Positions 373 to 17,336 of a stretch of DNA of 22,111 bases are shown one piece after another. The position numbers were made by a program, and so were the translations under genes. The notes under the pieces are model-generated. The model searched no databases. It was given only the letters and a program-made list of their open reading frames with translations, and was not told where the DNA came from. The DNA is from a virus. Each line of letters begins with the position of its first letter. The stretch's first letter is position 1. The stretch spans positions 1 through 22,111 of IMG/VR virus record IMGVR_UViG_3300025030_000440. The stretch is one strand, 5' to 3'.

Positions 373-801
373 ATGTCCAACCGCACACCGTGGGAGCAGA
401 CGTACTGCACAGCGTGCAAGGCGCCCTTGCCGCCGAAGCGCGCGAACCAGGAGTTCTGCGCGAGATGCGAAGGGCAAGCGAACCTCTGCCTATCCTGCGG
501 AAAGCATCCCGCCGTTGAGGGGTCCTCGCTCTGCCCCGCCTGCGCCGAGCGCATCGCCGCCACGCGCCTGGCGCACGGCGCCACTGCGCCCCAGGAATCC
601 GCCGGTTGGACCCTCGGCCAGCGCATCATGATCGCGGGGCTGTGGCTGACCGGCGGCGGCATCGCATCAGCGATCGCGTTCGGGGCGCTCATGCACGTGC
701 CCGAGGATGTCGTCGTGGCGGGTTGCGTCAGCAGTATCGGCTGGGCCGGCCTGGCCAAGATCGTCTGCTTCGTGCTCGGCCCCCGCTCCGACGAGCCGTA
801 G
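373..801 (+). CDS. Double zinc-ribbon, two-span membrane protein
   Basis: This is a 142-residue protein. Residues 12-57 hold four CxxC pairs (C12/C15, C29/C32, C39/C42, C54/C57), enough for two small zinc ribbons. Two hydrophobic segments follow (about 83-107 and 113-134), so the ribbons probably sit on one face of the membrane. I chose ATG 373 because a strong GAGGAGGT Shine-Dalgarno lies 7 bp upstream and the open frame before it is made of repeat modules. The TAG stop overlaps the first base of a palindromic element. The gene converges on the repressor gene at 927-1550. I do not recognise a family. It could be a phage moron gene or a host gene at the prophage edge. Confidence 0.6.
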   Translation: MSNRTPWEQTYCTACKAPLPPKRANQEFCARCEGQANLCLSCGKHPAVEGSSLCPACAERIAATRLAHGATAPQESAGWTLGQRIMIAGLWLTGGGIASAIAFGALMHVPEDVVVAGCVSSIGWAGLAKIVCFVLGPRSDEP

Positions 802-870
802 CGAAAAAAGGGGACACCATCACCATTTCGCAGCCGTCGCGAAGATGGTATGGTGTCCCCTTTGTTTCGC
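801..870. repeat. Palindromic element copy 1, between convergent genes
   Basis: This 70-bp element has outer ends GCGAAA/TTTCGC and arms GGGGACACCAT/ATGGTGTCCCC around a central TTTCG...CGAA stem. It is the only copy lying outside a coding frame. A-rich and T-rich flanks on the two sides of a GC-rich hairpin would also suit a bidirectional terminator for the two genes that converge here. Confidence 0.9.
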
Positions 871-926
871 CTGCCGCCGCCCCTCCAAACGGCGTCATAA
901 CGCTATAACGCCTTAGCGCCTTGCCT
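871..926. repeat. Short gap with tandem AACGC repeat
   Basis: The gap contains a short tandem (GTCATAACGCTATAACGCC, about 893-912) followed by a related TTAGCGCC. Nothing else is recognised. Confidence 0.4.
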
Positions 927-1550
927 TCATCCGCTCCCCGCCTCTGCCGTTCCGGTCCCCTGTCCCCGCCGTTGCCGTGCCTCGATCATTCGCTTCCACT
1001 TCCTCAGCCGATCCTCGCTCAGCACCCGCAGCCACTGCTGCCACGTCCAGCCCCACGCGCCGCCGTGGGCTCCCCGGGTGTGGTCGCGCGGATCGGCATA
1101 CCCGCGCAACTCCCGCAGCTCGGCGGCCGTCAGAACCATCCCGCTCTCGATCAACTCCTCGAGCCCCATGGGAAGCACCTCGTCCGGATCGAACGACGAG
1201 ACGCTTCTCGTAGGTCGGGTCTCCAGGCCCGACACCGTCCCCGCCTTCCCGCCGTTCCCGTCACCTGTCACCTGTGACCTGTCACCTGCGAGGTCCTCGG
1301 GACCGAGCATGATCTCCCCAAAGAAATACGCCACCGGCACGCGGAACAACCGAGACCAGTCCATGACGCGCTCAACGCTGGCCGGCCTCGTTCCGGTCTC
1401 CCACTGCGACACCATTGACGCCGCCACGGAAGGATCGCAGGCTGCCGCCATCGCCGACTGCGAAAGCCCGCGCCCCTTCCGCAGGCGGCGTAGGCGCTCA
1501 CCTATGGCTTCCGAAAGTTCTTGGGAATCTTCAGCGACAGCTATTGACAT
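927..1550 (-). CDS. XRE-family repressor (phage immunity repressor-like)
   Basis: This 207-residue protein is divergent from the rightward phage operon, the usual place for a lysogeny repressor. Residues about 14-71 form an XRE/HTH_3 helix-turn-helix (LRRLRKGRGLSQSAMAAA ... MVSQWETGTRPAS), followed by the typical LFRVPVAYFFGE tail. Residues about 89-116 are an insert made of two repeat modules read in frame: a CACCTGT tandem and a GTCGGG/CCCGAC hairpin (1210-1236). The C-terminal part (about 120-195) is helical and ends in a Trp- and Arg-rich segment, with no LexA-type protease motif seen. The start codon overlaps the -35 of the rightward promoter. On the minus strand TATACT (1563-1558) lies just 7 bp before the start, so its transcript may be nearly leaderless. 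Confidence 0.85.
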   Translation of the reverse strand: MSIAVAEDSQELSEAIGERLRRLRKGRGLSQSAMAAACDPSVAASMVSQWETGTRPASVERVMDWSRLFRVPVAYFFGEIMLGPEDLAGDRSQVTGDGNGGKAGTVSGLETRPTRSVSSFDPDEVLPMGLEELIESGMVLTAAELRELRGYADPRDHTRGAHGGAWGWTWQQWLRVLSEDRLRKWKRMIEARQRRGQGTGTAEAGSG

Positions 1551-1574
1551 GGCCCTCAGTATACGCTATTGTCA
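1540..1574 (+). promoter_or_regulatory. Rightward early promoter with two operator-like repeats
   Basis: TTGACA (1544-1549) and TATTGT (1567-1572) are 17 bp apart, a good sigma-70-type promoter directed at the early operon. Direct repeats GCTATTGACA (1540-1549) and GCTATTGTCA (1565-1574) overlap the -35 and -10 respectively, 25 bp apart. Binding of the divergent repressor there would block this promoter, and also its own start region. Two GGTAG repeats (1580, 1590) follow at one helical turn. The role is inferred; the motifs are seen. Confidence 0.6.
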
Positions 1575-1624
1575 CCAGCGGTAGCTTACGGTAGTGTAAC
1601 CCATAGCTCACGGAGCCCACCCAC

Positions 1625-1825
1625 ATGCCCACACCCACCAAGCCCTCAGCCCCCGCCGATCGGATCAGCCCGATGGAGATACATCGTCTGTGCGATTCCG
1701 CGATCGACGATGCCCGTGATGCCAAGGCCCACAGCAAGGACATCCGGGTCCACAACGAGGCTGACGCGCTCATTCTCGCCGCTCTCACTCGTCTGCGCGC
1801 GGCGATAGAGGCTGTCCCTGCATGA
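1625..1825 (+). CDS. Small hypothetical early protein
   Basis: This 66-residue, mostly helical, charged protein is the first gene after the rightward promoter. ATG 1625 is preceded by GGAG in the leader CGGAGCCCACCCACATG, the same leader style as most genes here. There are no motifs that I recognise. Its position just after the early promoter suggests a small regulatory or early protein, which is inference only. Confidence 0.55.
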   Translation: MPTPTKPSAPADRISPMEIHRLCDSAIDDARDAKAHSKDIRVHNEADALILAALTRLRAAIEAVPA

Positions 1826-1902
1826 CCGCCTCGAGCGTCTCGCGACTCTCGTCCCAGAGGACCCGCATGAACCGCGCCCGCCTCCTGATCCGTCGCCGTT
1901 GA
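1822..1902 (+). CDS. Possible tiny ORF overlapping the previous stop
   Basis: An ATG overlaps the stop of the 66-residue gene (ATGA) and opens a 26-codon frame rich in Ser and Arg that ends RLLIRRR. A second in-frame ATG (1867) has a GAGGA-like sequence upstream. It may only serve translational coupling, or may be chance in GC-rich DNA. Confidence 0.2.
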   Translation: MTASSVSRLSSQRTRMNRARLLIRRR

Positions 1903-1957
1903 ACTTGCGAACCTGCGAACTTGCCAACCTGACACCGCCGTCCCAGGAGCCCACCCG
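1903..1957. repeat. Spacer with GAACTTGCGAACCTG tandem
   Basis: A tandem of GAACTTGC / GAACCTGC / GAACTTGCC units (about 1900-1930) is followed by the leader CAGGAGCCCACCCG before the next ATG. Confidence 0.6.
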
Positions 1958-2230
1958 ATGCCCACCGCGCGAACCGAGTTCGACCCCAGCGCCCTCCGCG
2001 ACTTCAGGCAAGCCCGAGACCTCACCCACGAGGGCCTCGCCCTGTTGCTCAACGTCAACCGCACCGCAGTCACTCAGTGGGAGTCCGGCGACAAGGTGCC
2101 TTCCCGCGAGAACCTCTTCGCCCTCGCCGACGTGTTCGGGGTCCGCGTTGATCGTCTCGTCCGCCGCACCAACGGGAAGTCCAGCGGTCGACCCACGCGT
2201 CGATCCGTCGCCACCGAACACGCCGCGTAA
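1958..2230 (+). CDS. Cro-like XRE helix-turn-helix protein
   Basis: This is a 90-residue DNA-binding protein. Residues about 11-68 form an XRE domain (FRQARDLTHEGLALLLNVN, then RTAVTQWESGDKVPSRENLF and the closing ADVFGVRVDRLV). The remainder is a short basic tail. It has good CAGGAG spacing to ATG 1958. As the second helix-turn-helix gene, transcribed opposite to the repressor, it fits a Cro/Ner-like role in the lytic decision. The family is clear; the role is inferred from position. Confidence 0.8.
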   Translation: MPTARTEFDPSALRDFRQARDLTHEGLALLLNVNRTAVTQWESGDKVPSRENLFALADVFGVRVDRLVRRTNGKSSGRPTRRSVATEHAA

Positions 2231-2268
2231 GCGCGAACTCCCAGCCCGCCCACAGGAGAGCAGCGACG

Positions 2269-2925
2269 ATGACGGCGACGCGAACCGCACCACAACCCAC
2301 CACCCTTACCCAGCGCATGGACCGTCCAGCAATTCGACGGGGTTCGCGAGAGGTGCTGCGGGGGAGTGCTGCTACCGTTGCGTCAGCTTCGCCGAATGTT
2401 ACCACGAGTAACGCCGCCCGTCAATCCCCCCCGTCGCCGTCCCAGCCTTCCCGACGCACCGCCGTCCCGCCGATCACCTCTACCACCTCCGAACCTGCGC
2501 CTGAATCAGCCTGCACCCTCGCCGCCGATCGTCGGGACGCCACTGCGCCGGACAGCGAAGAAAGGGGACACCATACCATTTCGCCGACGTCTGGCGAAGA
2601 TGGTGTCCCCTTTTTCGCGCCCCCCCCGCCCGCCTTCCTCACCCTCCAGCAGGCCGCCCACGCGCTCACCGCGCTGGGCCGCGGCGTCGTGACGTACAAC
2701 CGCCTGTTCCAACTGTTCACCCGCCAGGTCGCCCGCCCGCCCATCAGGGTCTACGTGATGGACATGGGCCGTGGCGCCTCGCCCCGCAACGTGAAGCACA
2801 TCCGCGCCGAGGACCTCCCGGCCCTCGCCGAGTTCCTCGGCCTCACCGACCCGCCCGCCGTTGACATGCGCTCAGCACTTCGCACTTCGCACTCAGCACT
2901 GCCGTCCCCGGAGCCCACCACATGA
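2269..2925 (+). CDS. Hypothetical protein with a possible excisionase-like domain and a palindromic-element insert
   Basis: The frame codes for 218 residues. Residues 1-95 are low complexity (Pro, Ser, Thr, Arg) and may not be a folded domain. Residues about 97-116 are palindromic element copy 2 read in frame. Residues 121-192 look like the conserved core: LTLQQAAHAL, then VTYNRLFQLFTRQ and a closing HIRAEDLPALAEFL, compatible with a small MerR/excisionase-type winged helix. The last 20 residues come from a CGCACTTCGCACTCAGCACT module. ATG 2269 has AGGAG 10 bp upstream, but a later start cannot be excluded because all the N-terminal part is unusual. The stop overlaps the next ATG. Confidence 0.5.
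   Translation: MTATRTAPQPTTLTQRMDRPAIRRGSREVLRGSAATVASASPNVTTSNAARQSPPSPSQPSRRTAVPPITSTTSEPAPESACTLAADRRDATAPDSEERGHHTISPTSGEDGVPFFAPPPPAFLTLQQAAHALTALGRGVVTYNRLFQLFTRQVARPPIRVYVMDMGRGASPRNVKHIRAEDLPALAEFLGLTDPPAVDMRSALRTSHSALPSPEPTT
2555..2618. repeat. Palindromic element copy 2, inside a CDS
   Basis: The 64-bp element has ends GCGAAGAAAGGGGACACC and GGTGTCCCCTTTTTCGC and centre TTCGCCGACGTCTGGCGAA. It is read in the frame AGG GGA CAC (EERGHHT). Confidence 0.9.
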
Positions 2926-3284
2926 CTCGCACTCAGCAGCGCAAGCCCAACCCCCACGTAGGTCGGGACTCCAGTCCCGACGCCGCCCGCAAAGCCGCGG
3001 GCCAAACCCTCGTGGACTGTCACCACGCCCTGGCCGCCCTCGAACTCATCGATGCAGAGCACGAGTTGCCCGAGGACGAGCAGTGCCGCATGGTCCAGGT
3101 TTCATCCATCGAGTCCCGTTGCCTCGCGCTCATCGAATCCGCCCTCGCGGTGATCGAGCGCGACGCGGGCCTCGCGCCGCCCACGTCCATCCCCGAGCTC
3201 GACGCCCCGACGGTCGCCGATCTGGACCCCTCCTCCCTCGAGGACGGCGACCTCCTGCCCGCCGCCGAGGAGGCGCACCCATGA
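2922..3284 (+). CDS. Hypothetical helical protein with a module insert
   Basis: This 120-residue protein's ATG overlaps the previous stop (ATGA), implying translational coupling. Residues about 12-22 (VGRDSSPDAA) are encoded by a GTCGGGACT-CC-AGTCCCGAC hairpin module (2958-2985), so a mobile repeat is translated near the N terminus. The rest (about 25-95) is predicted helical and acidic, ending in a Glu/Asp-rich tail. I recognise no family. Confidence 0.6.
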   Translation: MTRTQQRKPNPHVGRDSSPDAARKAAGQTLVDCHHALAALELIDAEHELPEDEQCRMVQVSSIESRCLALIESALAVIERDAGLAPPTSIPELDAPTVADLDPSSLEDGDLLPAAEEAHP

Positions 3285-3919
3285 TGCACCCGCGCGCCAA
3301 CGACGCCGGCGGCGAACCGATCCTGACCCCGACCACTGCCGGCGGCCAGCCCGCCGTGATCCCTCCCCCCCTCTCCGGCACGGAGAGGGGGCCGGGGGGT
3401 GAGGCTCCTTCCCCCCGCCTCACCGCCATCGACTTTCTGTACTACCTCTTCGAGGCCCACCGCGACATCGGCCTCCGCATCGAGGACCTGACGGCCTACC
3501 ACGCGCCGACGCGCTGCCAGATTCGCATCCTGGCGGTCCGCCACGTCGGGCAGCCCGAGACCGCCGATCCCTACCTCTACCACGTCATCCTCCAGGAGAT
3601 CGACCCGTTCCGCCTGGTGGCCCACGGCCACACCCTCACCGGCGAGACGATCCACTGGATCCCGATGTCCGGCGCCTGCCCCGCGCCGGCTGCCCGGGCG
3701 GGCGAGGCCGAAGAAAGGGGACACCATACCATTTCGCCGACGTCTGGCGAAGATGGTGATGGTGTCCCCTTTTTCGCGCCCGCCACACTCACCCCCGCCC
3801 TCGGCGGCCCCGAGGAGGGTGCCGTGTCGTTCGTGCCGTTGGGAGGGGCCGCATACCGCGAAGCGGTATCCGGCCCGCCGTCCGCCGTCACCCCTGCCAC
3901 ACCAGGAGCCCACCCATGA
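3281..3919 (+). CDS. Hypothetical protein carrying three in-frame repeat modules
   Basis: The protein has 212 residues. ATG ATG at 3281 overlaps the previous stop. Residues about 46-130 look like an ordinary globular domain (AIDFLYYLFEAHRDIG ... YHVILQEIDPFRLVAHG). Around it are three translated modules: residues 28-42 from a CTCTCCG/CGGAGAG hairpin with GGGGTGAGGC tail, residues 143-166 from palindromic element copy 3, and residues 186-201 from a GGGCCG...CGGCCC double-stem module with inner arms ATACCGC/GCGGTAT. About a quarter of the protein is therefore repeat-derived. Function is unknown. Confidence 0.55.
   Translation: MMHPRANDAGGEPILTPTTAGGQPAVIPPPLSGTERGPGGEAPSPRLTAIDFLYYLFEAHRDIGLRIEDLTAYHAPTRCQIRILAVRHVGQPETADPYLYHVILQEIDPFRLVAHGHTLTGETIHWIPMSGACPAPAARAGEAEERGHHTISPTSGEDGDGVPFFAPATLTPALGGPEEGAVSFVPLGGAAYREAVSGPPSAVTPATPGAHP
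3710..3775. repeat. Palindromic element copy 3, inside a CDS
   Basis: The arms are AGGGGACACCATACC and GGTGATGGTGTCCCCT, the centre TTCGCCGACGTCTGGCGAA. The reading frame is the same as copy 2, so both give EERGHHTISPTSGEDG. Confidence 0.9.
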
Positions 3920-4350
3920 GACCGTCTCACCCGTCCGCGTCCGAGAAGATGGCCCTTGGCCTCGTCACCGCAATCGCCTGCCTCGCGGTGATGACCGTCC
4001 TACTGCTGTTCTGCGCCGGCAGCTCCCACGCCCAGGCAGTCGCCCCCTCCGACTGCATCTACATCTCGCAGGTGCTGATCGACGGCGTCCCCGAGGCCAC
4101 TGTGGCCGGCGTGGGTTACGCCTCCTACTCGTCGCCGACGTCCTGGCAGGTCCTCGCCCGCAGCGCCTCGGGTACCTGGTACATGGCCCCTGGCGATCTG
4201 CGTCTCAACGCGTTCCAGTACCGGGTCTCCGTCAGCCGCGCAACCTTCACCACCTACGGCGCGCCGACGATGCACTACCTGAGCTGCGCGCTGTGGGGAG
4301 GGCGCTGGCATCGCGTTGTCATCCGCGCCACCGCCGTCCCGCCCTGGTAG
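3916..4350 (+). CDS. Secreted or periplasmic small protein with signal peptide
   Basis: This 144-residue protein starts at an ATG overlapping the previous stop, with CAGGAGCCCACCC upstream. Residues 1-42 form a signal peptide: a short polar and basic start, a hydrophobic core LGLVTAIACLAVMTVLLLF and a probable cleavage after SSHAQA. The mature part (about 100 residues) is beta-rich, with C47 and C126 possibly forming a disulfide. I recognise no family. A secreted product in the early region could act in superinfection exclusion or host surface change, which is inference only. Confidence 0.65.
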   Translation: MRPSHPSASEKMALGLVTAIACLAVMTVLLLFCAGSSHAQAVAPSDCIYISQVLIDGVPEATVAGVGYASYSSPTSWQVLARSASGTWYMAPGDLRLNAFQYRVSVSRATFTTYGAPTMHYLSCALWGGRWHRVVIRATAVPPW

Positions 4351-4420
4351 CCGTCCGCCGTCGCCGTCCCGCTCGCGCCGTCGCCGTCACGGTCACGCCG
4401 TCCACAGGAGTCCGCCCACC
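4351..4420. repeat. Spacer of GCCGTC linkers
   Basis: The spacer is almost only repeats of (G)CCGTC with small changes, then the leader CCACAGGAGTCCGCCCACC before ATG 4421. It seems to be linker with no full hairpin module between the linkers. Confidence 0.6.
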
Positions 4421-5254
4421 ATGCTCAAAGTGAACCTGATCCAATTCCAGGCCGATACCCCCGAGGAGACGACCGTCTTCGGCGAGGCATTGCAGCGCCT
4501 GATGTCAGGGTCCCTCCCCGGCGCCGAGCCCCTCCTCGGCCTCACCGCCCTCCCCGCCGCCTCCGGAACCGCCACCCTCGGCGATCCCGACGCGCCTCCC
4601 GCGCTCCCCGCCGCCTCCGCCCCTCGCCCCCTCTCCGGAACGGAGAGGGGGCCGGGGGGTGAGGCCGCCGTTCCGTTGACGTCCGCTGGGACCGCCGGCG
4701 TCTCGCCGGCTGAGGTGGCGGGCGGTGAGCCGTCCGTGCCCGCGAGCCCTGTCCCGCCACCGCGGGATCGCCCGCCCCGCAAAGGCCGTCGCGTTGTTGG
4801 AGGGGCCGCATCGCATAGCGATCCGGCCCGCCGCCCCGCGAAGCGGGGTCCCGCGACCGCGGGATCGCCTTCCGCCGCCACGCCGTCCAACCCCCACGCC
4901 TGTCCCTCGCCGGGCTGCGCCTTCTCCTCCGGCACCCAGGCCGGCCTCACCCGCCACCGGAACCAGCAGCACGGCGAGCCCGCCACCACTGCCGGCAAGG
5001 GCGCCGGCGCTCCCGGCGACGCCTCACGCGGTACGCCGACCAAGGCGGCTGGGGCGTTCGTGTGTGCAATCTGCCTGAAAACGTTCGCGAGGCGCGGAGA
5101 CCTCGAGCGCCATCGAACGATGGCGCACACGCGCCACACGCCGGGGACGCGCACGCCGCGCGCGCCGACATTGCCGGACGCGCCCGCCTTCGACCCGATC
5201 GAGATCCCGCCGCTCGACGACGACGCCGACCCGCTCGGGGGTGACGAGGAGTGA
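4421..5254 (+). CDS. Two-finger C2H2 zinc-finger protein
   Basis: This is a 277-residue protein with a low-complexity middle (Pro, Ala, Gly; residues about 40-155) and two C2H2 fingers. Finger 1 has C161, C166, H179, H184 (C-x4-C-x12-H-x4-H); finger 2 has C215, C218, H231, H236 (C-x2-C-x12-H-x4-H, with the usual F and L hydrophobic positions). The tail is acidic. This fold is common in eukaryotes and rare in phages. The middle contains several translated repeat modules: a CTCTCCG hairpin (4627-4665), a GCCGGCG-TCT-CGCCGGC hairpin (4694-4710) and a GGGCCG...CGGCCC double stem (4797-4833). Start ATG 4421 follows ACAGGAG. DNA or RNA binding is likely from the fingers; the target is unknown. Confidence 0.75.
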   Translation: MLKVNLIQFQADTPEETTVFGEALQRLMSGSLPGAEPLLGLTALPAASGTATLGDPDAPPALPAASAPRPLSGTERGPGGEAAVPLTSAGTAGVSPAEVAGGEPSVPASPVPPPRDRPPRKGRRVVGGAASHSDPARRPAKRGPATAGSPSAATPSNPHACPSPGCAFSSGTQAGLTRHRNQQHGEPATTAGKGAGAPGDASRGTPTKAAGAFVCAICLKTFARRGDLERHRTMAHTRHTPGTRTPRAPTLPDAPAFDPIEIPPLDDDADPLGGDEE

Positions 5255-5483
5255 ACCCGCTCCTGACTCCCTACCTCCTCAACCAGCTCGAACCCGACCT
5301 GCGCGCCTGCCTGGCGGTCGTGCCGGTCCCGGTCTGCAGTCGCCGCCTGGTGGATGTCCGTAACGACCTGCTGTGCAGCGGCCTGGGATCATCGCCGCCC
5401 GTCTCGTCCAGGCCGTGACGCAGTTCATCTTCACCCGCCTGACGACGTTCTCGCTGGCCGAGTGCTACGGCCACCCGAACTGA
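5251..5483 (+). pseudogene. Small ORF interrupted by a one-base frameshift
   Basis: GTG 5251 overlaps the previous stop (GTGA) and gives a 55-residue frame ending at 5418. The last residues after GLG look random, while the -1 frame from 5385 continues smoothly as GIIAARLVQAVTQFIFTRL and ends naturally at 5483. Joined, the two parts make a plausible 77-residue protein. The switch lies at CCTGGGATC (5382-5390), which is not a classic slippery heptamer, so a one-base loss or a sequence error is likelier than programmed frameshifting. No family is recognised. Confidence 0.4.
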
Positions 5484-5530
5484 GGACGGCAGCACTGAGC
5501 ATCGAGCATTGAGCAGTCAGGAGAACGACA
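5484..5530. repeat. Spacer with GAGCATTGAGCA tandem
   Basis: Tandem TGAGCATCGAGCATTGAGCA is the reverse orientation of the ATGCTCAATGCTC module seen in later gaps, followed by CAGGAGAACGACA before GTG 5531. Confidence 0.75.
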
Positions 5531-5734
5531 GTGCGCACCTACCGCTACCGGCTGGAGTTCCAGGCCCCTGATGACGCTGCGGCGTCTCGGCTGGTGGGCG
5601 CGCTGAACAGCGTGATCTCGGCCGCCTCGCGCGTCGAGATCCAACTGCCCCTGGGCCTCACCGCCGTAGACGCCGATCTACCGTATGCCGTCCGCAAAGC
5701 CCTACCCAAGCGCCGCCGCAAATCGTCCGCGTAG
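5531..5734 (+). CDS. Small hypothetical protein
   Basis: This is a 67-residue protein starting at GTG 5531, with CAGGAG 8 bp upstream. The first half (YRYRLEFQAPDDAAASRLVG) suggests a beta-alpha unit; the end is basic (KRRRKSSA). There is no recognised family. It is co-directional with and close to the transposition genes. Confidence 0.5.
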   Translation: MRTYRYRLEFQAPDDAAASRLVGALNSVISAASRVEIQLPLGLTAVDADLPYAVRKALPKRRRKSSA

Positions 5735-5807
5735 GACGGGCTCCAGCCCCGATTCCGTAGCCGTATGCTCAATGCTCGATGCTCAATACTCACTCCAGAG
5801 AACCGCC
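5735..5807. repeat. Spacer with GGGCT/AGCCC hairpin and ATGCTCAAT tandem
   Basis: A GACGGGCTCCAGCCCCGAT hairpin is joined by CCGTAGCCGT to three ATGCTC(A/G)AT-type units, then AGAGAACCGCC before ATG 5808. Confidence 0.8.
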
Positions 5808-6218
5808 ATGTCCGACGTCACTCCATCCCAACTCCACCGCTACCTGATGGCCCACGCCGTGGGCCGGGCGAACGCCGTGCCATCCGGCGTCATCCAGGAG
5901 GCCCTGGGTCTCGGAGCCTCCGCGCTCCGCGAGATGCTCCACGCGCTGCGGGTCGAGGGGACGCTGATCGGGTCGTCGATGTCCTCCACCGCCGGGGGCT
6001 ACTACATCCCGGCCGATTACGACGAGGCCTACGAGGGCGTGCAGCACCTCAAGTCGCGCATCCGCGAGCTGTCCCGCGCCTACGCGGGCCAGGTGCGGGC
6101 GATCAAGCGCCAGCACCCCTCCTCACCTCCCAGGCAGCTCTCGCCGTCCAAGCCTCCCGTCCAGCATCTGCTGTTCGACCTGCCCAACCCGCGCGGCGCG
6201 CCAACCATCGCCGTGTAG
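5808..6218 (+). CDS. Winged-helix-like phage regulator
   Basis: The protein has 136 residues. Residues about 5-72 read as a winged helix: helix pairs (SQLHRYLMAHAVG, SGVIQEALGLGASALREML) and a wing ending GGYYIPADYDE, a form common in small phage regulators. A helix of about 30 residues follows (YEGVQHLKSRIRELSRAYAGQ), suited to dimer formation, then a Pro-rich tail ending with HLLFDL. It lies directly before the transposase. DNA binding is inferred from the pattern, and no specific family is claimed. Confidence 0.55.
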   Translation: MSDVTPSQLHRYLMAHAVGRANAVPSGVIQEALGLGASALREMLHALRVEGTLIGSSMSSTAGGYYIPADYDEAYEGVQHLKSRIRELSRAYAGQVRAIKRQHPSSPPRQLSPSKPPVQHLLFDLPNPRGAPTIAV

Positions 6219-6289
6219 CCCGCCGTGGCCGGGTTGCCGTCGCCGTATGCTCAATGCTCAATGCTCAATGCCGCCGTCAGAGGGTTCAC
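6219..6289. repeat. Spacer with ATGCTCAATGCTCAAT tandem
   Basis: GCCGTCGCCGT linker, three ATGCTCA units (6246-6270), GCCGCCGTC linker, then AGAGGG before ATG 6290. Confidence 0.8.
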
Positions 6290-8155
6290 ATGCCCACACT
6301 GTCCCGCACCGAGGAGACCCGTCTGCAGGTCCTGCATGAGATTCGCCTGCGGCCGTCGCTCCGCCGGCCGGGCATCTCGCGCTTCGAGCGCGGCGACCTG
6401 ATCACGCGGATTGCCGAGCGCTGCGGCTGCTCCGAGAAGACCGTCCGGCGAGTGTTGGCGGATGACCGGCCAGCTACCGAGCGGGGGAAGCGGACGGGGC
6501 GAGCGGACGCCGGCCGGATGCGCGTGTTGCCCGAGCCGCTGCGGGGGCAGGTGGAGGCTCGCGTCCGCGAGCTGCTGTCTCAGACGCGGCTGCTGTTCGC
6601 GGCCCCGCGCGGGAAGACCCCGCGCACGACGATCAGCGATGCCGAGGTCTGCCGGCAGTTGTACCACGAGTTCCCTGCGCTCGAGGAGCTGCTGCCCCGC
6701 GAGCTGGAGACGGGCGACCGGCTGCCGTACAACCGTTCGCTCTACCACGCCGTCAACCGCTTCACCGCCGCGATCCGCGAGGCCGACCGGCCGCGCCGCG
6801 GCGCTTCGGTCCGCATCGAGGCTCCGCACATCAACTACCAGTGGGTGAAGGACGAGACGGTGACGGATTTTTTCCTGCAGCCCGGGCCGGGGGAGTCCAC
6901 TCCGCAGCGGGCGTGGCTGTCGGTGGTAGAGGACGAGTTCAGCCGCGCGATCGTCTTCGCGCACCACGTGCGCAACGCCCACCGCGCGAGCTACTCCGAC
7001 CTGATGATCCGCGCGATCGGGCGCAAGCCGACCGACGCGGGCTGGCCGATGTGCGGAGTGCCTCAGCAGCTCCGGTACGACGTGAACTTCGTCGATTTCT
7101 CGGCCCATGCGAAGCGCTGCATGGCCGACCTGGGGATCCAGCCGAACCCCTGCCAGGGGATGCAGCCCCAGAGCAAGGGCAAGGTCGAGCGGATCATCGG
7201 CACGATCAAGCGCGGGCTCCATCCTCTCCTGCCCGGTTACTGCGGCGCTGCGAACACCGGCGACGAGGCGATCACGCCCGGCGCCGACTTCATCTGTCGC
7301 AGCGAAGAAAGGGGACACCGCGGAAAGAACGGGGACACCATACCATCTTCGCCGACGTCGCGAAATGGTGATGGTGTCCCCGTTTTTCCGGATGGCATGG
7401 TGTCCCCTTTTTCGGCCGACTCCGGCCTCTGGTACGACCCCCGCTCCAACCTCCCGCTCCTCACGCTCGAGGAGGCGGACGCCGCCCTGCACGCCTGGAT
7501 CGCCGAGTACCACCGGACGGTCCACGGGTCCCTGGGCTGCTCGCCGCGAACGGCCTGGGCCAACAGCGCGTCGGCGAACGTGGGGCTTGTGCGGGTGCCT
7601 ACCGATCAACAGTTGTTCGAGACGTTCCTGATCCAGGCCGACGACACGGGGCACGGGCCCGGGGGACGGGTGGTGGCGGCCCAGCAGGTCCGCGCGCACG
7701 GCCTGACGTTCCAGGCCGAGTGGCTGGGGGACTATGAGGGGATGGTGCTGGACGTGAGGTACAAGCCCACGGACCCGAGTCGGGTGTGGGTGTTCGAGCG
7801 GGGGCGGCTGTTGGACGAGGTTCCGCTGCTGCCGACGATTGTGTTGGGCGAGGGCATCGACTGGAGCGACGCGGAGCGCATGATTCGCGATCGCAAGCGC
7901 GCCGACAAGGCCGCCCGGGCGGATCGCCGCGCCGCGCAGGCCGGCCTCCACCTCCACGCGCCATTGGCCGCCCGCCTGGCCGGAAAGAACGGGGACACCA
8001 TACCATCTTCGCCGACGTCGCGAAATGGTGATGGTGTCCCCGTTCTCCCGGCCCCCGACGCCGTCCCCTGGCAGCCTCCCTCCTCTGCCGATGACGAGAA
8101 GCTCGCCCAGGTCACGATCGGCGGCATACCGCTCCGCCGCGCCGCCGGCGGGTAG
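6290..8155 (+). CDS. Mu-type DDE transposase (MuA-like) with two in-frame palindromic inserts
   Basis: This 621-residue protein catalyses strand transfer of the element. The N-terminal helix-turn-helix lies at about 35-58 (LITRIAERCGCSEKTVRRVL). The RNase-H-like catalytic core holds D188 (VKDETVTD), D264 (LRYDVNFVDF) and E300 (SKGKVERIIGTIK), giving a DD(35)E spacing; SVVEDEFSRAIVF (211-223) is the typical core strand. Residues 338-375 are the nested palindromic element (copy 4), sitting 38 residues after the catalytic Glu and before the conserved AEYHRTVHGSLGCSPRTAW segment. Residues about 564-587 are a second, single element (copy 5). The C-terminal beta-barrel and basic tail follow Mu A organisation. 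ATG 6290 was chosen because the frame upstream is out-of-frame sequence of the previous gene. It precedes the ATPase gene, as in MuA-MuB. Confidence 0.92.
   Translation: MPTLSRTEETRLQVLHEIRLRPSLRRPGISRFERGDLITRIAERCGCSEKTVRRVLADDRPATERGKRTGRADAGRMRVLPEPLRGQVEARVRELLSQTRLLFAAPRGKTPRTTISDAEVCRQLYHEFPALEELLPRELETGDRLPYNRSLYHAVNRFTAAIREADRPRRGASVRIEAPHINYQWVKDETVTDFFLQPGPGESTPQRAWLSVVEDEFSRAIVFAHHVRNAHRASYSDLMIRAIGRKPTDAGWPMCGVPQQLRYDVNFVDFSAHAKRCMADLGIQPNPCQGMQPQSKGKVERIIGTIKRGLHPLLPGYCGAANTGDEAITPGADFICRSEERGHRGKNGDTIPSSPTSRNGDGVPVFPDGMVSPFSADSGLWYDPRSNLPLLTLEEADAALHAWIAEYHRTVHGSLGCSPRTAWANSASANVGLVRVPTDQQLFETFLIQADDTGHGPGGRVVAAQQVRAHGLTFQAEWLGDYEGMVLDVRYKPTDPSRVWVFERGRLLDEVPLLPTIVLGEGIDWSDAERMIRDRKRADKAARADRRAAQAGLHLHAPLAARLAGKNGDTIPSSPTSRNGDGVPVLPAPDAVPWQPPSSADDEKLAQVTIGGIPLRRAAGG
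7302..7415. repeat. Palindromic element copy 4, nested composite, inside transposase
   Basis: The outer arms are GCGAAGAAAGGGGACACC and GGTGTCCCCTTTTTCG. Inside is a complete 70-bp inner element (7321-7390) with ends CGGAAAGAACGGGGACACC and GTGTCCCCGTTTTTCCG. The left outer arm stops after ACACC, where the inner copy begins. Confidence 0.93.
7981..8050. repeat. Palindromic element copy 5, single inner type, inside transposase
   Basis: The first 60 bp are identical to the inner element at 7321-7380, only 660 bp away. The right end reads CGTTCTCCCG. No outer element surrounds it. Confidence 0.93.
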
Positions 8156-9141: not shown

Positions 9142-9225
9142 TGGCACGCGCGGCTCGCCCGTGAGGGCTGTGGGCCGTTGTAGGGGCGGACCAACGTGTC
9201 CGCCCGCCGTTCCCAGGAGACCACC
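9142..9225. repeat. Spacer with two hairpin modules
   Basis: A hairpin CACGCGCG-GCT-CGCCCGTG (one mismatch; 9145-9163) is followed by a CCGTT linker, GGGCGGAC-CAACGT-GTCCGCCC (9184-9205), another CCGTT and CAGGAGACCACC before ATG 9226. Confidence 0.85.
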
Positions 9226-9696: not shown

Positions 9697-9788
9697 CCTG
9701 CGTCACCGCAAGCCGGAACCTCGGCCCGCCGTGCCGTCTTCCGTGTATTCCGTGTATTCCGTGGTCATCTCAGCCGTTGGAGCGTCCC
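9697..9788. repeat. Spacer with GGTTCCG hairpin and TTCCGTGTA tandem
   Basis: GAGGTTCCG and CGGAACCTC (9686-9724) form a hairpin that includes the end of the previous gene. Then GCCGTGCCGTC linkers, a tandem TTCCGTGTATTCCGTGTA (9740-9757) and CCGTTGGAGCGTCCC before ATG 9789. Confidence 0.8.
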
Positions 9789-10376
9789 ATGCCCACCCAA
9801 CCTCAACTCAAGCGCCTCTTCGCCCTGGCCCGCAACGCGGGGATCTCGCCCGACGATCTGAAGGCGATCGTGGCCGACCGCTACGGCCACGCCTCCCGCC
9901 GCGATCTGTCCGACGCGGAGTACGAGGACCTCTGCGTGCACCTGCAGGACGCCGCCGGGTCGCGCTCCCAGGCGTCGGGCCGCCTGCGCGCGGGCGAGCT
10001 GGCGAACGAGATGGAGATCCTGGCCTTCCTGCAGACCGAGGGCCTGCCCTGGGCGAAAAAGGGGACACCATCACTTTCTTCGCCGACGTCTGGCGAAAAA
10101 GTATGGTGTCCCCTTTCTTCGCCCTGCCCGCCCTGCACCGAGCTCGACTTCGCCCACGCGGTCACGATCCTCAACGACTTCCGCCTGTACCGTTCGAGCT
10201 ACAAGCGGTTCTCGATCCGCGACGCCCGCCGCTGCCTTGCTACCTGGGGTGAGTACCCGTTGTGGGTGTGGAGGCGCGCCGCCGAGGTCTGGCTTTCGCA
10301 CTACCGCACGAAGAACGAGCGCTACTTCGCGGGCATCCTCAAGCACACGCTGGCCGACGCCCGCCGCGCCGCGTAA
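9789..10376 (+). CDS. GemA/gp16-like protein with palindromic insert
   Basis: This 195-residue protein's N terminus (QLKRLFALARNAGISPDDLK ... ASRRDLSDAEYEDLC, residues 6-50) matches the Mu gp16/GemA family (DUF1018), proteins of the early region whose role is poorly known. Residues 89-113 are palindromic element copy 6, read in a different frame from copies 2 and 3 (KKGTPSLSSPTSGEKVWCPL). The C-terminal part (120-195) is a helical, Trp- and Tyr-rich domain that I do not recognise; the insert lies in the link between the two parts. TTGGAG precedes ATG 9789. Confidence 0.65.
   Translation: MPTQPQLKRLFALARNAGISPDDLKAIVADRYGHASRRDLSDAEYEDLCVHLQDAAGSRSQASGRLRAGELANEMEILAFLQTEGLPWAKKGTPSLSSPTSGEKVWCPLSSPCPPCTELDFAHAVTILNDFRLYRSSYKRFSIRDARRCLATWGEYPLWVWRRAAEVWLSHYRTKNERYFAGILKHTLADARRAA
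10052..10123. repeat. Palindromic element copy 6, inside a CDS
   Basis: The 72-bp element has ends GGCGAAAAAGGGGACACC and GGTGTCCCCTTTCTTCGCC and centre CTTCGCCGACGTCTGGCGAA. The arms differ slightly (ATCACTTT / AAAGTATG), keeping complementarity imperfectly. Confidence 0.9.
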
Positions 10377-12237: not shown

Positions 12238-12332
12238 CCGTAGTGTCTCCCCCTTCTGAAGGCAGGGGGCCGGGGGGGTAGGAGCCGTAGCCGTCAGCTT
12301 TCGTGTATTTCGTGTATTCCGTGGTGATCGCC
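12238..12332. repeat. Spacer with CCCCCTTCTG hairpin and TTTCGTGTA tandem
   Basis: A degenerate CCCCCT...AGGGGG hairpin with GGGGGGTAGG tail is joined by CCGTAGCCGTC to a tandem TTTCGTGTATTTCGTGTA (12299-12316), ending at the next start. Confidence 0.75.
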
Positions 12333-14210
12333 ATGCCGTTGCCCACTCCATCCAAAGCCAAGCTGCGCACCGCCCTCCGCGGCAGGCCGGATTCCGGATT
12401 CCCGGACTCCGAGCTGGAGTTCTTCGCCAAGCACGTCCACGTCCGCTGCGGCAGCCAGGGCTGGCGGCTGTGGACGCTGGAGGGCCATGAGTTCATGGCC
12501 CTGCTGGTGGTGGACGACACCCGCCAGACGGTGATGCAGAAGTCGACGCAGCTTGGGATTTCCACGCTGGAGATCGGGAAGGCGCTCTACCGCTGCTGCC
12601 GCCTGCGCCTGGTCGGCGGCTACTACATCACCAACGCGAACTTCGTCCGCAAGTTCGTGTCGTCCACGGTTGACCCCGTCATCGACAAGGACCCGCTGAT
12701 CGCCCAGTTCGTGGTCGAGGGCGACCCATACGCCGATCTGTCCGAGTGGGCGCGGAAGCGGAAAAAAGGCGCCGACACCACGCAGCTCAAGCGGTTCGGC
12801 GACATCCCCCTCTGGTTCCTGGGGGTCCAGACCTACCAGGACGTGTCCTCCGTGGACATGGATCACATCGGCCTGGACGAGTTCGACGAGCTGGACGAGG
12901 CGCTGGCCGAGGACATCCCCGACCGCATCATGCACTCTGACTACAAGCGCCGGAGCGTCTTCTGCAAGCCCTCCGTGCCCGACTTCGGCATCAACGCCGA
13001 GTATCTCGCCAGCGACCAGAAGCGGTTCATGCTCCGCTGCGCCAACTGCGGCAAGTGGACCAACCTCGAGGACGCCTTCCCCGCCTGCCTCTTCCCCCGC
13101 GAACAAAGGGGACACCATACCAATTCATCCGTCCGAATTGGTGTCCCCTTTGGCGCGGGGTCCTCCTTCCGTTTCGGCTGCCCCCTCTGCGGCGGAGGAC
13201 GGCTCCCGTACCTCGATGGCCCCCGCACCGTCCGCTTCCACCAGACCCGCCGCGATGGGCTGCCGGCCCGTCAGCCCTCGATCCTGGACGCCTCCGGCCG
13301 GATCTGCGCGCGGTGGGAGGCCGCCTTCCCCGACCGGCCGATCTCGGGGTACCGAATCAGCCAGATGTACGGGCCGTTCACCTCGGCTGACGACGTGGCC
13401 GCCGACTGGAAGAAGTCCGAGAAGAGCGACGTGGCCCGGGGCCGGTTCACCCGCTCCGTTGGCGGCCAGCCCTACGCCGCCGACCGCCAGCCGATCACCG
13501 CGGCCGTGTTCGACGCCGCCTGCAACCCGAGCGTCCGCCGCCTGCTTCACCAGGAGCCCGCCCTGCTCCGCACGGCCGTCGCGATCTGGGCGGGCATCGA
13601 CCTCGGCAAGACGCACTGGCTGTGGGTGCTGGCCGAGTTCCCCGATGGCCTGATCCAGACCGTCTGGTTCGAGGAGTGCCACGACGACGACGTGTTGGCC
13701 GACCGGCTCCGCCGGTTCGGGGTCCATGCCTTCTGCATCGACGCCGGCGCCGAGACCCACACTGCGAAGCGCCTGGTCAAGCAGTTCCCGCACCGGGGGG
13801 TCCTGACCCGCTGGAGCGACACACAGCTCCAGGGCGTGGTCGGGGAAGAGATCGACGGGCTGGATGTCTTCCACACGCTGAAGGTCCCGCGCACCGAATC
13901 GCTCGACGAGATGTGCTCGCTCATCCGCCGCGAGGGCGACGACGGCCCACGGCTGCGGCTGCCCAATGTCCTCTGCGAGGAGATGGACGTGGCCCGCCGC
14001 CACTTCCTCAAGCTCGTGAAGAAAGACAAGGACGAGGATGCGCGCCAGCCCTACCGCGACGGGGTTGAGAACCATCTGGCCTGCGCGTGCTGCTACGCGA
14101 CGCTCATCCGCAAGTGGGGCGAGAACCTGCATGTGGGGCCCGTGGCCGACCTGACGGGTCTCAAACTGTCCATCCCGCGCACGCCGCTACCCAGCCCCTG
14201 GGGGGACTGA
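12333..14210 (+). CDS. Phage large terminase, GpA-like, with palindromic insert in its zinc ribbon
   Basis: This 625-residue packaging motor has an N-terminal ATPase with a Walker A-like QKSTQLGISTLEIGKAL (69-85) and Walker B IGLDEFDEL (179-187, E183). A zinc ribbon follows (C236, C239 and C283, C286), as in lambda GpA-type terminases. Between the two cysteine pairs, residues 256-274 are palindromic element copy 7. The C-terminal RNase-H-like nuclease shows GIDLGKTHWLWVLAE (D423) and FCIDAGAETHTAKRL (D470). ATG 12333 is chosen since upstream frame is repeat tandem; GTG 12324 is possible. It follows the likely small subunit. Confidence 0.88.
   Translation: MPLPTPSKAKLRTALRGRPDSGFPDSELEFFAKHVHVRCGSQGWRLWTLEGHEFMALLVVDDTRQTVMQKSTQLGISTLEIGKALYRCCRLRLVGGYYITNANFVRKFVSSTVDPVIDKDPLIAQFVVEGDPYADLSEWARKRKKGADTTQLKRFGDIPLWFLGVQTYQDVSSVDMDHIGLDEFDELDEALAEDIPDRIMHSDYKRRSVFCKPSVPDFGINAEYLASDQKRFMLRCANCGKWTNLEDAFPACLFPREQRGHHTNSSVRIGVPFGAGSSFRFGCPLCGGGRLPYLDGPRTVRFHQTRRDGLPARQPSILDASGRICARWEAAFPDRPISGYRISQMYGPFTSADDVAADWKKSEKSDVARGRFTRSVGGQPYAADRQPITAAVFDAACNPSVRRLLHQEPALLRTAVAIWAGIDLGKTHWLWVLAEFPDGLIQTVWFEECHDDDVLADRLRRFGVHAFCIDAGAETHTAKRLVKQFPHRGVLTRWSDTQLQGVVGEEIDGLDVFHTLKVPRTESLDEMCSLIRREGDDGPRLRLPNVLCEEMDVARRHFLKLVKKDKDEDARQPYRDGVENHLACACCYATLIRKWGENLHVGPVADLTGLKLSIPRTPLPSPWGD
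13099..13155. repeat. Palindromic element copy 7, inside terminase
   Basis: The shortest copy (57 bp): GCGAACAAAGGGGACACC and GGTGTCCCCTTTGGCGC with centre CAATTCATCCGTCCGAATTG, a different loop class from copies 2-6. Confidence 0.9.
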
Positions 14211-14211
14211 C

Positions 14212-14478
14212 ATGACCCGCCGCCGTTCAACCGGAGAGACTGTCCTCGGCCTCGCGCTCCTGGTGACGTTCATCGCCGTCTGGTACTGCGTCATCGCGCA
14301 GTGGCCCGCCATCTCTGCCAGCCCGGCGCTCGACGTGTCCGGCCCGACGCTCGAAAGTGGCAGGGGCGAAAAAGGGGACACCATACCATTTCATCCGTCC
14401 GAAATGGTGATGGTGTCCCCTTTCTTCGCCCCTGCGCCCCATGCGGCCCCTCCAACCGTCATCGGCCACTGGCCGTAG
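14212..14478 (+). CDS. Single-span membrane protein with palindromic insert
   Basis: This 88-residue protein starts 1 bp after the terminase stop. Residues 9-31 (VLGLALLVTFIAVWYCVIAQW) make one transmembrane segment. Residues 52-73 are palindromic element copy 8 (EKGDTIPFHPSEMVMVSPFF), and the last residues are from nearby repeat DNA. Without the insert the protein is about 50-60 residues. A small holin- or spanin-like role is possible but not supported by motifs. Confidence 0.5.
   Translation: MTRRRSTGETVLGLALLVTFIAVWYCVIAQWPAISASPALDVSGPTLESGRGEKGDTIPFHPSEMVMVSPFFAPAPHAAPPTVIGHWP
14365..14430. repeat. Palindromic element copy 8, inside a CDS
   Basis: The 66-bp element has ends GGCGAAAAAGGGGACACC and GGTGTCCCCTTTCTTCGCC, with centre CATTTCATCCGTCCGAAATG, the same loop class as copy 7 but with a different closing stem. 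Confidence 0.92.
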
Positions 14479-14551
14479 CCGTCTTCGTGCTGCTTCGTGC
14501 GCTTCGTGTCTTCGTGTTTCAGGCGTTCCGTTCCGTGATGTGAGGTGTCCC
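14479..14551. repeat. Spacer with CTTCGTG tandem
   Basis: CCGTC linker, then repeated (G)CTTCGTG units (14483-14520), ending GTGAGGTGTCCC before GTG 14552. Confidence 0.75.
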
Positions 14552-15472
14552 GTGCCGTTAGCCGACGCCATCGACCAACTCATCTCCCGCACCGCGCCGA
14601 CCCTGGTGACGCGCTCGTTCCAGCGCGCCTGGGACGCGGCGGCGCCGGTCGATGAGTACCCGCTGGCGCAGATCATCGAGCGGCTGGACTCCCGCGTGTG
14701 CCCGCTCTGTCGGGCGCTCCACGGGAGGATCATCCGGCGGGACGATCCCCAGTTCGCGCGCTGGCGCCTGGGCAGCCACATCAACTGCCGCCGCGTCATG
14801 GCCTGGATCCACCGGTCCGAGACCGACCACACCGGCCAGCCGACGCAGCCGACGTTCCCGGCGGGCAGCGACGTGCTCCACACCGACGCCAAGGGCCGGT
14901 CGTTCACGCTCGACCAGCTCACGGAGAAGCACGGCCACTTCGTCCGCGACCCGCAGAAGTATGCGGCCCTGCGCACGCCGGTCCGGCCGACCGGCCGCGA
15001 CTTCATCGCGTACCGCAAGCCGCTGCCCGGCGGCGGGCTGGCTCCGCACGTGACGCTGCGGTTTCGCGACGGAATGCCCAAGTGGGCGGTCCGCCAGACG
15101 CTGCAGAGCATGGGCCAGGGGTTCACGGACCTGTACGGGCTGCCGATCCCTGGCGACCGCGAGCTGGCGGTGCAGATGCTCTGGCACGCGGGCCGCAGCG
15201 GCCTGTTCTCCAACCTGTCCGCCATCGCGCGCATCCGCTCCGGGGCCTGGCCGGCTGCCGCGCTCACGCCGGAGGACCTGGCGCTGGTGCCTTCGCTCCT
15301 CCTGTCCGATCCCGAGACGCACTTCGTGACGTCCCAAACCGGAAGCCGCACCGAGTGGGTGTTGCACAACCCCTCGATCACGCTGCCCGACGGCCGCGTG
15401 GTCGAGGACCCATCCGCCTTCTACTCGCCCGCCGCTGGCGAGTTCACAGACATCGCGCGCCTGCCGTCATAG
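14552..15472 (+). CDS. F-like minor head protein (SPP1 gp7/Mu F family)
   Basis: The protein has 306 residues. Residues 49-80 carry the family signature: CPLCRALHGRIIRRDDPQFA, then SHINCRR, i.e. C50, C53, H57 and H76, C79. In Mu and SPP1 the homologue is a minor head protein needed for head assembly and DNA ejection. The second half (about 165-300) is a separate domain that I cannot assign (VTLRFRDGMPKWAVRQTLQS ...). GTG 14552 is chosen for the nearby GAGGTG; an ATG further up lies in repeat DNA. In Mu the F gene follows the portal gene, but here the portal is 5 kb downstream. Confidence 0.75.
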   Translation: MPLADAIDQLISRTAPTLVTRSFQRAWDAAAPVDEYPLAQIIERLDSRVCPLCRALHGRIIRRDDPQFARWRLGSHINCRRVMAWIHRSETDHTGQPTQPTFPAGSDVLHTDAKGRSFTLDQLTEKHGHFVRDPQKYAALRTPVRPTGRDFIAYRKPLPGGGLAPHVTLRFRDGMPKWAVRQTLQSMGQGFTDLYGLPIPGDRELAVQMLWHAGRSGLFSNLSAIARIRSGAWPAAALTPEDLALVPSLLLSDPETHFVTSQTGSRTEWVLHNPSITLPDGRVVEDPSAFYSPAAGEFTDIARLPS

Positions 15473-15560
15473 GAGCACCGTTGTGGGACGGGCTTCAGCC
15501 CCGATGCCATAGCTGTATGCTCAGTGCTCGATACTCAATGCTCGCTACCGAGGTCGTCCC
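15473..15560. repeat. Spacer with GGGCT/AGCCC hairpin and ATGCTCAGTG tandem
   Basis: A GACGGGCTTCAGCCCCGAT hairpin (about 15486-15504) follows CCGTT. Then tandem ATGCTCAGTGCTCGATACTC-type units and CCGAGGTCGTCCC before ATG 15561. Confidence 0.8.
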
Positions 15561-15980
15561 ATGTACACCACCGTCGCCGCCGTGAAAGCCGAGTTCCCCA
15601 AGCTGAAGACCTGGGGCGAGGGCTCCGCGCCGACTGATCCTCAGATCACGGCCATGATCGAGCAGGCCGACGCGCGGATCGACGGCTACTGCGCGGGTCG
15701 GTATGCGACCCCCCTCGATCCGGTGCCTGACACGGTCGAGGAGATCAGCCGGTACCTGGTGGCGGCGCGCATCATGGAGCGACTGTGGCCGGACACGCCG
15801 GAGGCCGCACAGGCGAAGCTCAAGCAGGCCACGAGCCTCCTCGCCGACATCGCGACGGGGAAGCTGAAGCTGGTGGCCCAGGGCGTGGGCGAGTCCGCCA
15901 CCGAGGCCGGCGCCGACGCGGGCCCGCTCTACGCGCTCCCCACCGGCGACCCGACCTTCAGCATGGAGGATGACTGGTGA
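15561..15980 (+). CDS. gp36-like protein (DUF1320)
   Basis: This 139-residue protein resembles Mu gp36 (DUF1320), a structural or assembly protein of the head-tail region. It has YTTVAAVKAEFPKL, MIEQADARIDGYCAGRYATP, then a helix LVAARIMERLW and TSLLADIATGKLKL near the end. Family length is near 140. GAGGTC precedes ATG 15561. The next gene starts at a GTG overlapping the stop. Confidence 0.78.
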   Translation: MYTTVAAVKAEFPKLKTWGEGSAPTDPQITAMIEQADARIDGYCAGRYATPLDPVPDTVEEISRYLVAARIMERLWPDTPEAAQAKLKQATSLLADIATGKLKLVAQGVGESATEAGADAGPLYALPTGDPTFSMEDDW

Positions 15981-16888
15981 GCGACGGCAGGAGTGAGCAT
16001 CGAGCATTGAGCACCGAGCATCGTGGCATGGGCGTCTCGCCCATGAGGGCCGCGGTGCCGTCCGCCGTTCCCGTGCCTGCGGGTCGCCCGACCCGCGCCG
16101 TAGGCGAAGAAAGGGGACACCACGGAAAGAACGGGGACACCATACCATCTTCGCCGACGTCGCGAAATGGTGATGGTGTCCCCGTTCTTCCGGATGGTAT
16201 GGTGTCCCCTTTTTCGCCCGACCCCCTCCGCCTCCTCAAATCCGCCCTCTGCAACCTCCTCTGGCCCACGGGGGGCGGCTGTCTGTACGGCCACGGCTGC
16301 ACCGCCGAGATCCGTGTCGCGAACGACGAACAGCTCCGCGCGTTGCTCGACCACTTCGGCCAGGAGCGCCTCCTCGAGCTGACCGTTCGCATCCGCACCG
16401 AGGTGGTCGGGATGTCCGGCTACCAGTGGCGCAGCTACATCGGCTACATGAAGCGCCTCCGCGACCTCATGCACCAGGAGCGCCAGTCGCCGACCGCGGC
16501 TCGCGCCGGTCGGGCTTCCGGCCCGACACCCGAGCAGTCCATGGGCCGGCAGCTCTCGGCCCAGGCCGAGCAGTCCCGCACCGCCGCCGAGGCCGCCGCC
16601 GCGCGCTTCGACGCCCTGCCCGACGCCGAGCAGGTCGCCCTGATGAAGGAGGCCCGCCGTTCCAACCTGGCGCTGCGCAACCGCGCCTACGACTCCCCCA
16701 TCCTCCGCGCCGCCGCGATCGCGCTCATGCCCGCCGCAGGCGAAGACAGGGGACACCGCGGAAAGAACGGGGACACCATACCATCTTCGCCGACGTCGCG
16801 AAATGGTGATGGTGTCCCCGTTTTTCCGGATGGTATGGTGTCCCCCTTTTCGCCCACATCACCTGCCTCCGGAGCCCACCATGCCTGA
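15977..16888 (+). CDS. Hypothetical head-region protein whose N terminus is made of repeat modules
   Basis: GTG 15977 overlaps the previous stop. Residues 1-80 of this 303-residue frame come from four adjoining modules: a GAGCATTGAGCA tandem, a CATGGGCG-TCT-CGCCCATG hairpin, a GCGGGTC-GCCC-GACCCGC hairpin and nested palindromic element copy 9. The presumed original protein is about 83-250 (LRLLKSALCNLLWPTGGG ... SGYQWRSYIGYMKRLRDL, then a long helix). Residues 255-292 are nested copy 10. No start codon with a Shine-Dalgarno is evident after the modules, so either the modules are translated or the true start is cryptic. No family is recognised. Confidence 0.55.
   Translation: MSDGRSEHRALSTEHRGMGVSPMRAAVPSAVPVPAGRPTRAVGEERGHHGKNGDTIPSSPTSRNGDGVPVLPDGMVSPFSPDPLRLLKSALCNLLWPTGGGCLYGHGCTAEIRVANDEQLRALLDHFGQERLLELTVRIRTEVVGMSGYQWRSYIGYMKRLRDLMHQERQSPTAARAGRASGPTPEQSMGRQLSAQAEQSRTAAEAAAARFDALPDAEQVALMKEARRSNLALRNRAYDSPILRAAAIALMPAAGEDRGHRGKNGDTIPSSPTSRNGDGVPVFPDGMVSPFSPTSPASGAHHA
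16103..16218. repeat. Palindromic element copy 9, nested composite
   Basis: The 116-bp composite has outer ends GGCGAAG and TTCGCC; the inner element spans 16123-16192 (CGGAAAG...TTCCG). The junction reads ACACCA|CGGAAA. Confidence 0.93.
16739..16854. repeat. Palindromic element copy 10, nested composite
   Basis: The 116-bp composite has outer ends GGCGAAG and TTCGCC; inner element 16759-16828. It lies in the same gene as copy 9. Confidence 0.93.
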
Positions 16889-17336
16889 CTGCCCGCCCGT
16901 ACCCGAGATCATCGCCGTGACCCGTGCCATGTGCCGCCAGCACGGAATCCCGCTGGCGCTCGAAGAACTCTGCGTCGAACGTATGAGGAATGGCCTGGAC
17001 CGTTACGGGGAGACGATGTTCAGCAACGCCAACCCGAGGGCCTGGCTCCGCGAGATCCTCGAGGAGCTGATCGACGCCTTCAACACGGGCGGTCCACTCC
17101 GCGCCTGCCGGTGCGAGACGCCCATCGGCGTGCCGCGCACCGCCGAAGCCCTCCTCTCCGTCTGGGCCGCCTACCAGGCCGCGCCCGCAAGCGAAGAAAG
17201 GGGACACCGCGGAAAGAACGGGGACACCATACCATCTTCGCCGACGTCGCGAAATGGTGATGGTGTCCCCGTTTTTCCGGATGGCATGGTGGCCCCTGTT
17301 TCGCCCACCGCCCCGCCGGAGGTGGCGCAGCCATGA
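16881..17336 (+). CDS. Hypothetical protein, possibly MazG-like, with palindromic insert
   Basis: This 151-residue protein starts 8 bp inside the previous gene, with GGAGCCCACC before ATG 16881. Residues 36-68 (RNGLDRYGETMFSNANPRAW, LREILEELIDAFN) have the helix and E-E-x-x-D pattern of small phage NTP-pyrophosphohydrolase-like proteins, but the rest of that fold is not clear and I hold the call lightly. Residues 104-141 are nested element copy 11, so the natural C terminus is probably near residue 103. Confidence 0.45.
   Translation: MPDCPPVPEIIAVTRAMCRQHGIPLALEELCVERMRNGLDRYGETMFSNANPRAWLREILEELIDAFNTGGPLRACRCETPIGVPRTAEALLSVWAAYQAAPASEERGHRGKNGDTIPSSPTSRNGDGVPVFPDGMVAPVSPTAPPEVAQP
17191..17305. 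repeat. Palindromic element copy 11, nested composite with decayed right arm
   Basis: The inner element 17210-17279 is intact. The outer right arm reads GGTGGCCCCTGTTTCGCC instead of GGTGTCCCCTTTTTCGCC, so the outer hairpin has started to decay while the inner one has not. Confidence 0.92.

Follow-up and report, generated by a model that had tools for sequence, protein, structure and literature searches.

A palindromic element family in frame in genes of a Mu-like phage, with a large related population in an Armatimonadetes genome

The window analysed here, 22,111 bases that make up the complete IMG/VR virus record IMGVR_UViG_3300025030_000440, contains eleven copies of one palindromic element, ten of them in open reading frames, and the same family is present at many loci in the genome of the Armatimonadetes MAG G001. 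Overall, the copies are probably best explained as non-autonomous palindromes of the REP/TIR type that stem from the host, are moved in trans by a Y1 transposase, entered the phage repeatedly, and are tolerated as peptide. The record is that of a Mu-like phage, with a recognisable Mu-type transposase, MuB-like ATPase, and terminase; a search for Y1 transposases (PF01797) found none in the window, and no Rfam family matches it.

The GGGGACACC arm has 29 matches on the two strands of the window, where shuffled sequences led us to expect 0.35 and gave at most 3. The matches resolve into eleven hairpins, as the original prediction had counted, of which seven are simple and four are nested composites with one element inside another, and the DNA folding energies of the hairpins lie 5.9 to 11 standard deviations under those of shuffles. 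When aligned, the elements end in GAAAAA/TTTTTC feet and have GACGTC at the hairpin tip, and the arms GGGGACAC of the window copies match the GGGGWSAS motif. The simple copies are e1 (803 to 868, no strand assigned, with a bulge orientation opposite to that of most copies) and, on the plus strand, e2 (2557 to 2616, equal to e3 minus 6 nt), e3 (3710 to 3775), e5 (7984 to 8048), e6 (10055 to 10120, likewise with an inverted bulge orientation), e7 (13101 to 13154), and e8 (14366 to 14427). The composites, also on the plus strand, are e4 (7304 to 7413, inner element at 7324 to 7388), e9 (16106 to 16215), e10 (16742 to 16851), and e11 (17193 to 17302, with its outer right arm mutated to GGTGGCCCC). 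Since the four composites are near-identical to one another and their inner part also stands alone, with the same core, as e5, the composite has been copied as a unit.

Only e1 lies outside any gene. The Mu-type transposase gene (6290 to 8155, plus strand; Mu-transpos_C, PHROG 310) carries e4 and, near its C terminus, e5; e6 lies in a gene at 9789 to 10376 (plus strand) that has a weak PHROG 286 match and for which we keep the tentative label GemA-like from the original prediction; and e7 is carried by the gene of the terminase large subunit (12333 to 14210, plus strand; GpA_ATPase, PHROG 675). The remaining carriers are the open reading frames at 2269 to 2925 (e2), 3281 to 3919 (e3), 14212 to 14478 (e8), 15977 to 16888 (e9 and e10), and 16881 to 17336 (e11). 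Since 88% of the window is coding by our own gene calls, random landing would be expected to put about ten of eleven copies in open frames, and what counts is that none of these frames is closed. One forward frame is closed in seven of the ten copies, yet the closed frame is never the one in use. Both the claim that none of the ten closes its frame and the claim that all three forward frames are used were borne out: the RGHH type is read in seven copies (e2 and e3 among them), GDTIP in two (e5 and e8), and GTPS in one (e6).

How firmly a copy can be called internal to a gene was judged by third-position GC, for which we required at least 0.88 on both flanks and a lower value inside the copy. 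Four copies in three genes are secure by this measure, namely e4 and e5 in the transposase, e6 in the GemA-like gene, and e7 in the terminase, with 0.88 to 0.97 on both flanks and 0.38 to 0.57 inside. Copy e3 is likely internal to its gene as well. The coding claim is weaker for copies near the ends of open reading frames or in small or uncharacterised ones: e2 and e9 are near uncertain N termini (the coding status upstream of e2 is uncertain, and e9 may precede the true start), e10 and e11 are about 12 and 11 codons before their stops, and e8 is in a small frame. The prediction of at least seven carrier genes thus stands for open frames, of which there are eight, and is firm for three genes. 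Copy lengths were also compared. The five simple in-frame phage copies with AAA/TTT feet measure 41, 47, 47, 53, and 53 and agree modulo 3, and in G001 a match length of 2 modulo 3 is found for 18 of 25 in-gene copies and 16 of 50 others (Fisher p = 0.0014); we give this signal no weight, because the phage lengths step by 6 nt, a short direct repeat, and the loss of target sequence in G001 varies.

Homologues of the carrier proteins do without the segments. In the terminase, e7 sits between the two CxxC motifs of the zinc ribbon, the loop of which has 43 residues in the phage and 25 in homologue L142, and the difference of 18 residues equals the 54-nt element; L142 is distant, so that we infer the exact junction. 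The e4 composite is missing as a whole from transposase homologues, and alignments place the inserts in variable loops. Strict IMG/VR searches for terminase and transposase relatives returned none. Conservation of the same segments as protein in unrelated homologues, which the original prediction had set against mobile DNA, turned out the other way, as relatives of the carrier genes lack them.

A pattern scan of genomes found the arms in several phyla, with the closest match in MAG G001 (record VGFC01). A search of the host genome with a covariance model had been proposed, and such a model, derived from copies in the window and in G001, recovered no fewer than 75 separate G001 loci (150 candidates were scored, and the count is a lower bound); by the same model, other genomes of the phylum hold a few copies, the strongest of them in G285. 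Between flanks of high third-position GC, 25 of the 75 copies are in frame, and again all three frames are used. By our own reading of context, the carriers include the linkers of a sugar ABC ATPase and of an E1 alpha/beta fusion, a sulfatase, a DNA methyltransferase, and a hydrazine-synthase-alpha-like gene with three copies in two frames. The dominant arm form in G001, GAGGGACAC, is one base off GGGGWSAS. In six G001 copies all 20 stem pairs are kept, five of them with both partners changed and none with a change in just one partner, a degree of compensation that slid and shuffled controls fall short of, and the outer stem sequence and AT-rich feet vary in step on both sides with pairing kept. 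Variants of 81 to 93 nt that have longer loops between the same arms occur on G001 contigs C155, C240, C199, C145, C263, C24, and C28; they may derive from a larger transposon by internal deletion.

With respect to origin, G001 copies are clearly nearer to e6 and e8 than the other phage copies are (the closest relative of e6 is a G001 copy, and the core of e8 is one edit from one), and e7 also leans to G001 copies, by one edit. These affinities suggest that the phage likely has a host related to G001, G001 itself being a related carrier and at most a candidate host. The source of the elements looks like a host REP/TIR population and not a speciality of the phage.

Comparison of G001 with G285 shows how the copies sit in bacterial genes. 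In the G285 orthologue of the hydrazine-synthase-alpha-like gene (about 83 to 86% identical over the shared part), the second copy is at the same place and the third is missing. Seven further gene pairs differ by net gains of 45, 48, 18, 30, 42, 51, and 69 nt in G001, all multiples of three; an eighth site (C234) aligned poorly and was left out. Because these gains are smaller than the elements (62 to 92 nt), 14 to 47 nt of host loop are missing at each alignable G001 site. Either the element replaced its target or the loops were trimmed later, for which the divergence of the two genomes leaves room. Insertion of the IS200/IS605 type is not known to lose target sequence, and we know of no description of target replacement for REPs or IS200/IS605 elements. 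That palindromic mobile DNA enters proteins by replacing short loops in any frame, and spread in this way through bacterial coding genes and into the phage, is a tentative reading that we hold to be possible but rather doubtful. The original statement that the unit moves as DNA and is tolerated as peptide agrees with the 25 in-frame G001 sites in all frames and with relatives that lack the segments, but it needs amending in that the bacterial copies may replace a loop instead of simply inserting, and translation is predicted.

A candidate for the mobilising enzyme is suggested by the arms. Y1 genes whose TIRs have GGGGWSAS in common were named TIRYTs in a study that also described families of TIR repeats (Di Nocera et al. 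2013, PMC3733652). The present family resembles such TIR repeats of TIRYT/RAYT genes in its GGGGWSAS-type arms, in being dispersed (at least 75 copies in G001, 11 in the phage) and partly self-complementary, and in sharing genomes with Y1 genes flanked by related arms; it differs in its longer hairpin, its phage copies, and its many in-frame intragenic copies, and in that no Y1 gene was found with its exact arms alongside. The Y1 gene on G001 contig C140 is flanked by 25-bp GGGGACACCATNNNATGGTGTCCCC hairpins, smaller than the element and with the same GGGGACACCAT arms, and the gene itself contains a further one, in frame, ahead of the motif at its C terminus. Clostridia have Y1 genes set between GGGGACACC arms, and short palindromes that match these arms occur at other places in the respective genomes. 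The exact arms of the 62-nt element were beside none of the ten G001 Y1 matches examined, so that we put forward the link to Y1 transposases as a proposal.

Other palindromes of the window and of G001 were also recorded. A tandem array of 25-bp GGGGACACCATNNNATGGTGTCCCC hairpins with a spacing of about 38 bp occupies G001:C338:3572-3785. Further palindrome families of the window have close counterparts on the flanks of other G001 Y1 genes. GTAG-tagged REP-like palindromes, several of them intergenic, are found at window positions 232, 1210, 2958, and 19236, at 5731, 15483, and 18559, and at 9180 and 10626, and one like them flanks the Y1 gene of C405 (L109). A GGGGCCGCAT...TCCGGCCCGCCG family (window 314, 3845, 4802, 8164, 10661, 18521, and 19194) has a near-identical counterpart flanking the Y1 gene of C77 (L110), and a palindrome similar to the GTGGCACG type (window 71, 8334, 9141, and 16023) flanks that of C103 (L107). 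Two more families, CCTGCGGGTCG... and CTCTCC...GGAGAGGGG, partly in open reading frames, are at 277, 16073, and 19806 and at 3371, 4631, 11293, 12249, and 19283. Short intergenic repeat runs (GCTCAATGCTCAAT; CGTGTATTCCGTGG) are at 5767, 6249, 8390, 15519, and 18612 and at 9742, 12302, and 19872.

The history that we propose would run as follows. Non-autonomous palindromic elements of the REP/TIR class, with arms fitting GGGGWSAS, would be native to an Armatimonadota-like host genome, fold into a DNA hairpin, and most likely be moved in trans by a Y1 (HUH, RAYT/TIRYT-type) transposase of the host. Copies from the host pool would have reached the phage repeatedly, after which the nested composite was copied as a unit. 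Since the palindrome is free of stops in most frames and in either orientation, in-gene copies can survive when the frame is kept; those in the loop or linker regions of a coding gene would then be translated as segments of about 18 to 37 residues, with KRGTPYQFPTSEIGMVSLFF and EERGHRGKNGDTIPSSPTSR among the predicted peptides. Four observations count against this history: none of the ten G001 Y1 matches has the arms of the 62-nt element alongside, the phage record has no Y1 transposase, the dominant G001 arm form departs from GGGGWSAS, and the missing 14 to 47 nt of loop do not fit what is known of IS200/IS605-type insertion. Recombination or template switching at hairpins during replication, with annealing at microhomologies, replacement of short host stretches, and no dedicated transposase, is an unlikely alternative that would account for the missing host loop at the alignable sites, for outer stems that vary with pairing kept, and for the failure to find a Y1 gene with the exact arms. 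Against it, a G001 Y1 gene has the smaller GGGGACACCAT-arm hairpins on its flanks and Y1 genes in Clostridia lie between similar arms; in addition, arms conserved across a family of many copies, and a nested composite that was copied whole, suggest that an enzyme recognises them. A role of the segments as functional parts of proteins or of gene regulation, with hairpins selected separately in each gene, is very improbable: frame keeping and compensatory stem changes would suit such parts, but three frames giving unrelated peptides are in use, homologues lack the segments, copies occur in unrelated genes and outside genes, and their third-position GC is unlike that of the surrounding gene. An assembly artefact or chimaeric contig, which repeats in a virus record from a metagenome might suggest, has a negligible chance, because each copy has flanks of its own, the copies are not identical to one another, and the family occurs independently in G001 and G285, the latter with one copy at the corresponding position in an orthologous gene.

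Palindromes that code for protein are known chiefly from Rickettsia and a small number of REP-rich bacteria. The predicted parallel to the Rickettsia palindromic elements (RPE), with a sequence that is probably unrelated, holds: both are mobile palindromes that occupy many unrelated genes without breaking the frame and seem to be tolerated as peptide. The present family differs from RPE in its bacterial lineage, in its use of all three frames, in its presence in a phage as well, and in the apparently replaced loop of the bacterial copies, and most copies here are shorter than RPE-1. It also resembles GTAG and CGTC REPs and REPINs as short dispersed palindromes; no GTAG was seen at the hairpin foot, where the aligned ends read GAAAAA/TTTTTC, nor was an unpaired terminal CGTC tag as in CGTC REPs (including RPE-4 and RPE-6), GACGTC being at the tip instead. 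REP copies inside coding regions have been reported, most of them in Opitutus terrae and R. conorii (PMC3733652). In-frame palindromes are therefore already known from RPE and intragenic REPs, and a phage precedent was not found among open-access papers; scans of viral collections gave chance matches only, exact-pattern scans of IMG/VR yielded no other record with the family, and phage or plasmid records had no match to the element.

The family described here spans an environmental Armatimonadetes MAG and a phage, with three frames in use and at least 25 in-frame copies in a single genome. With that many copies and a close relative, G285, that has empty or different sites, the entry of REPs into genes and the persistence of the resulting peptides become testable by strain comparison. 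A REP population of host type that colonises a phage genome could, in addition, help to identify the hosts of phages.
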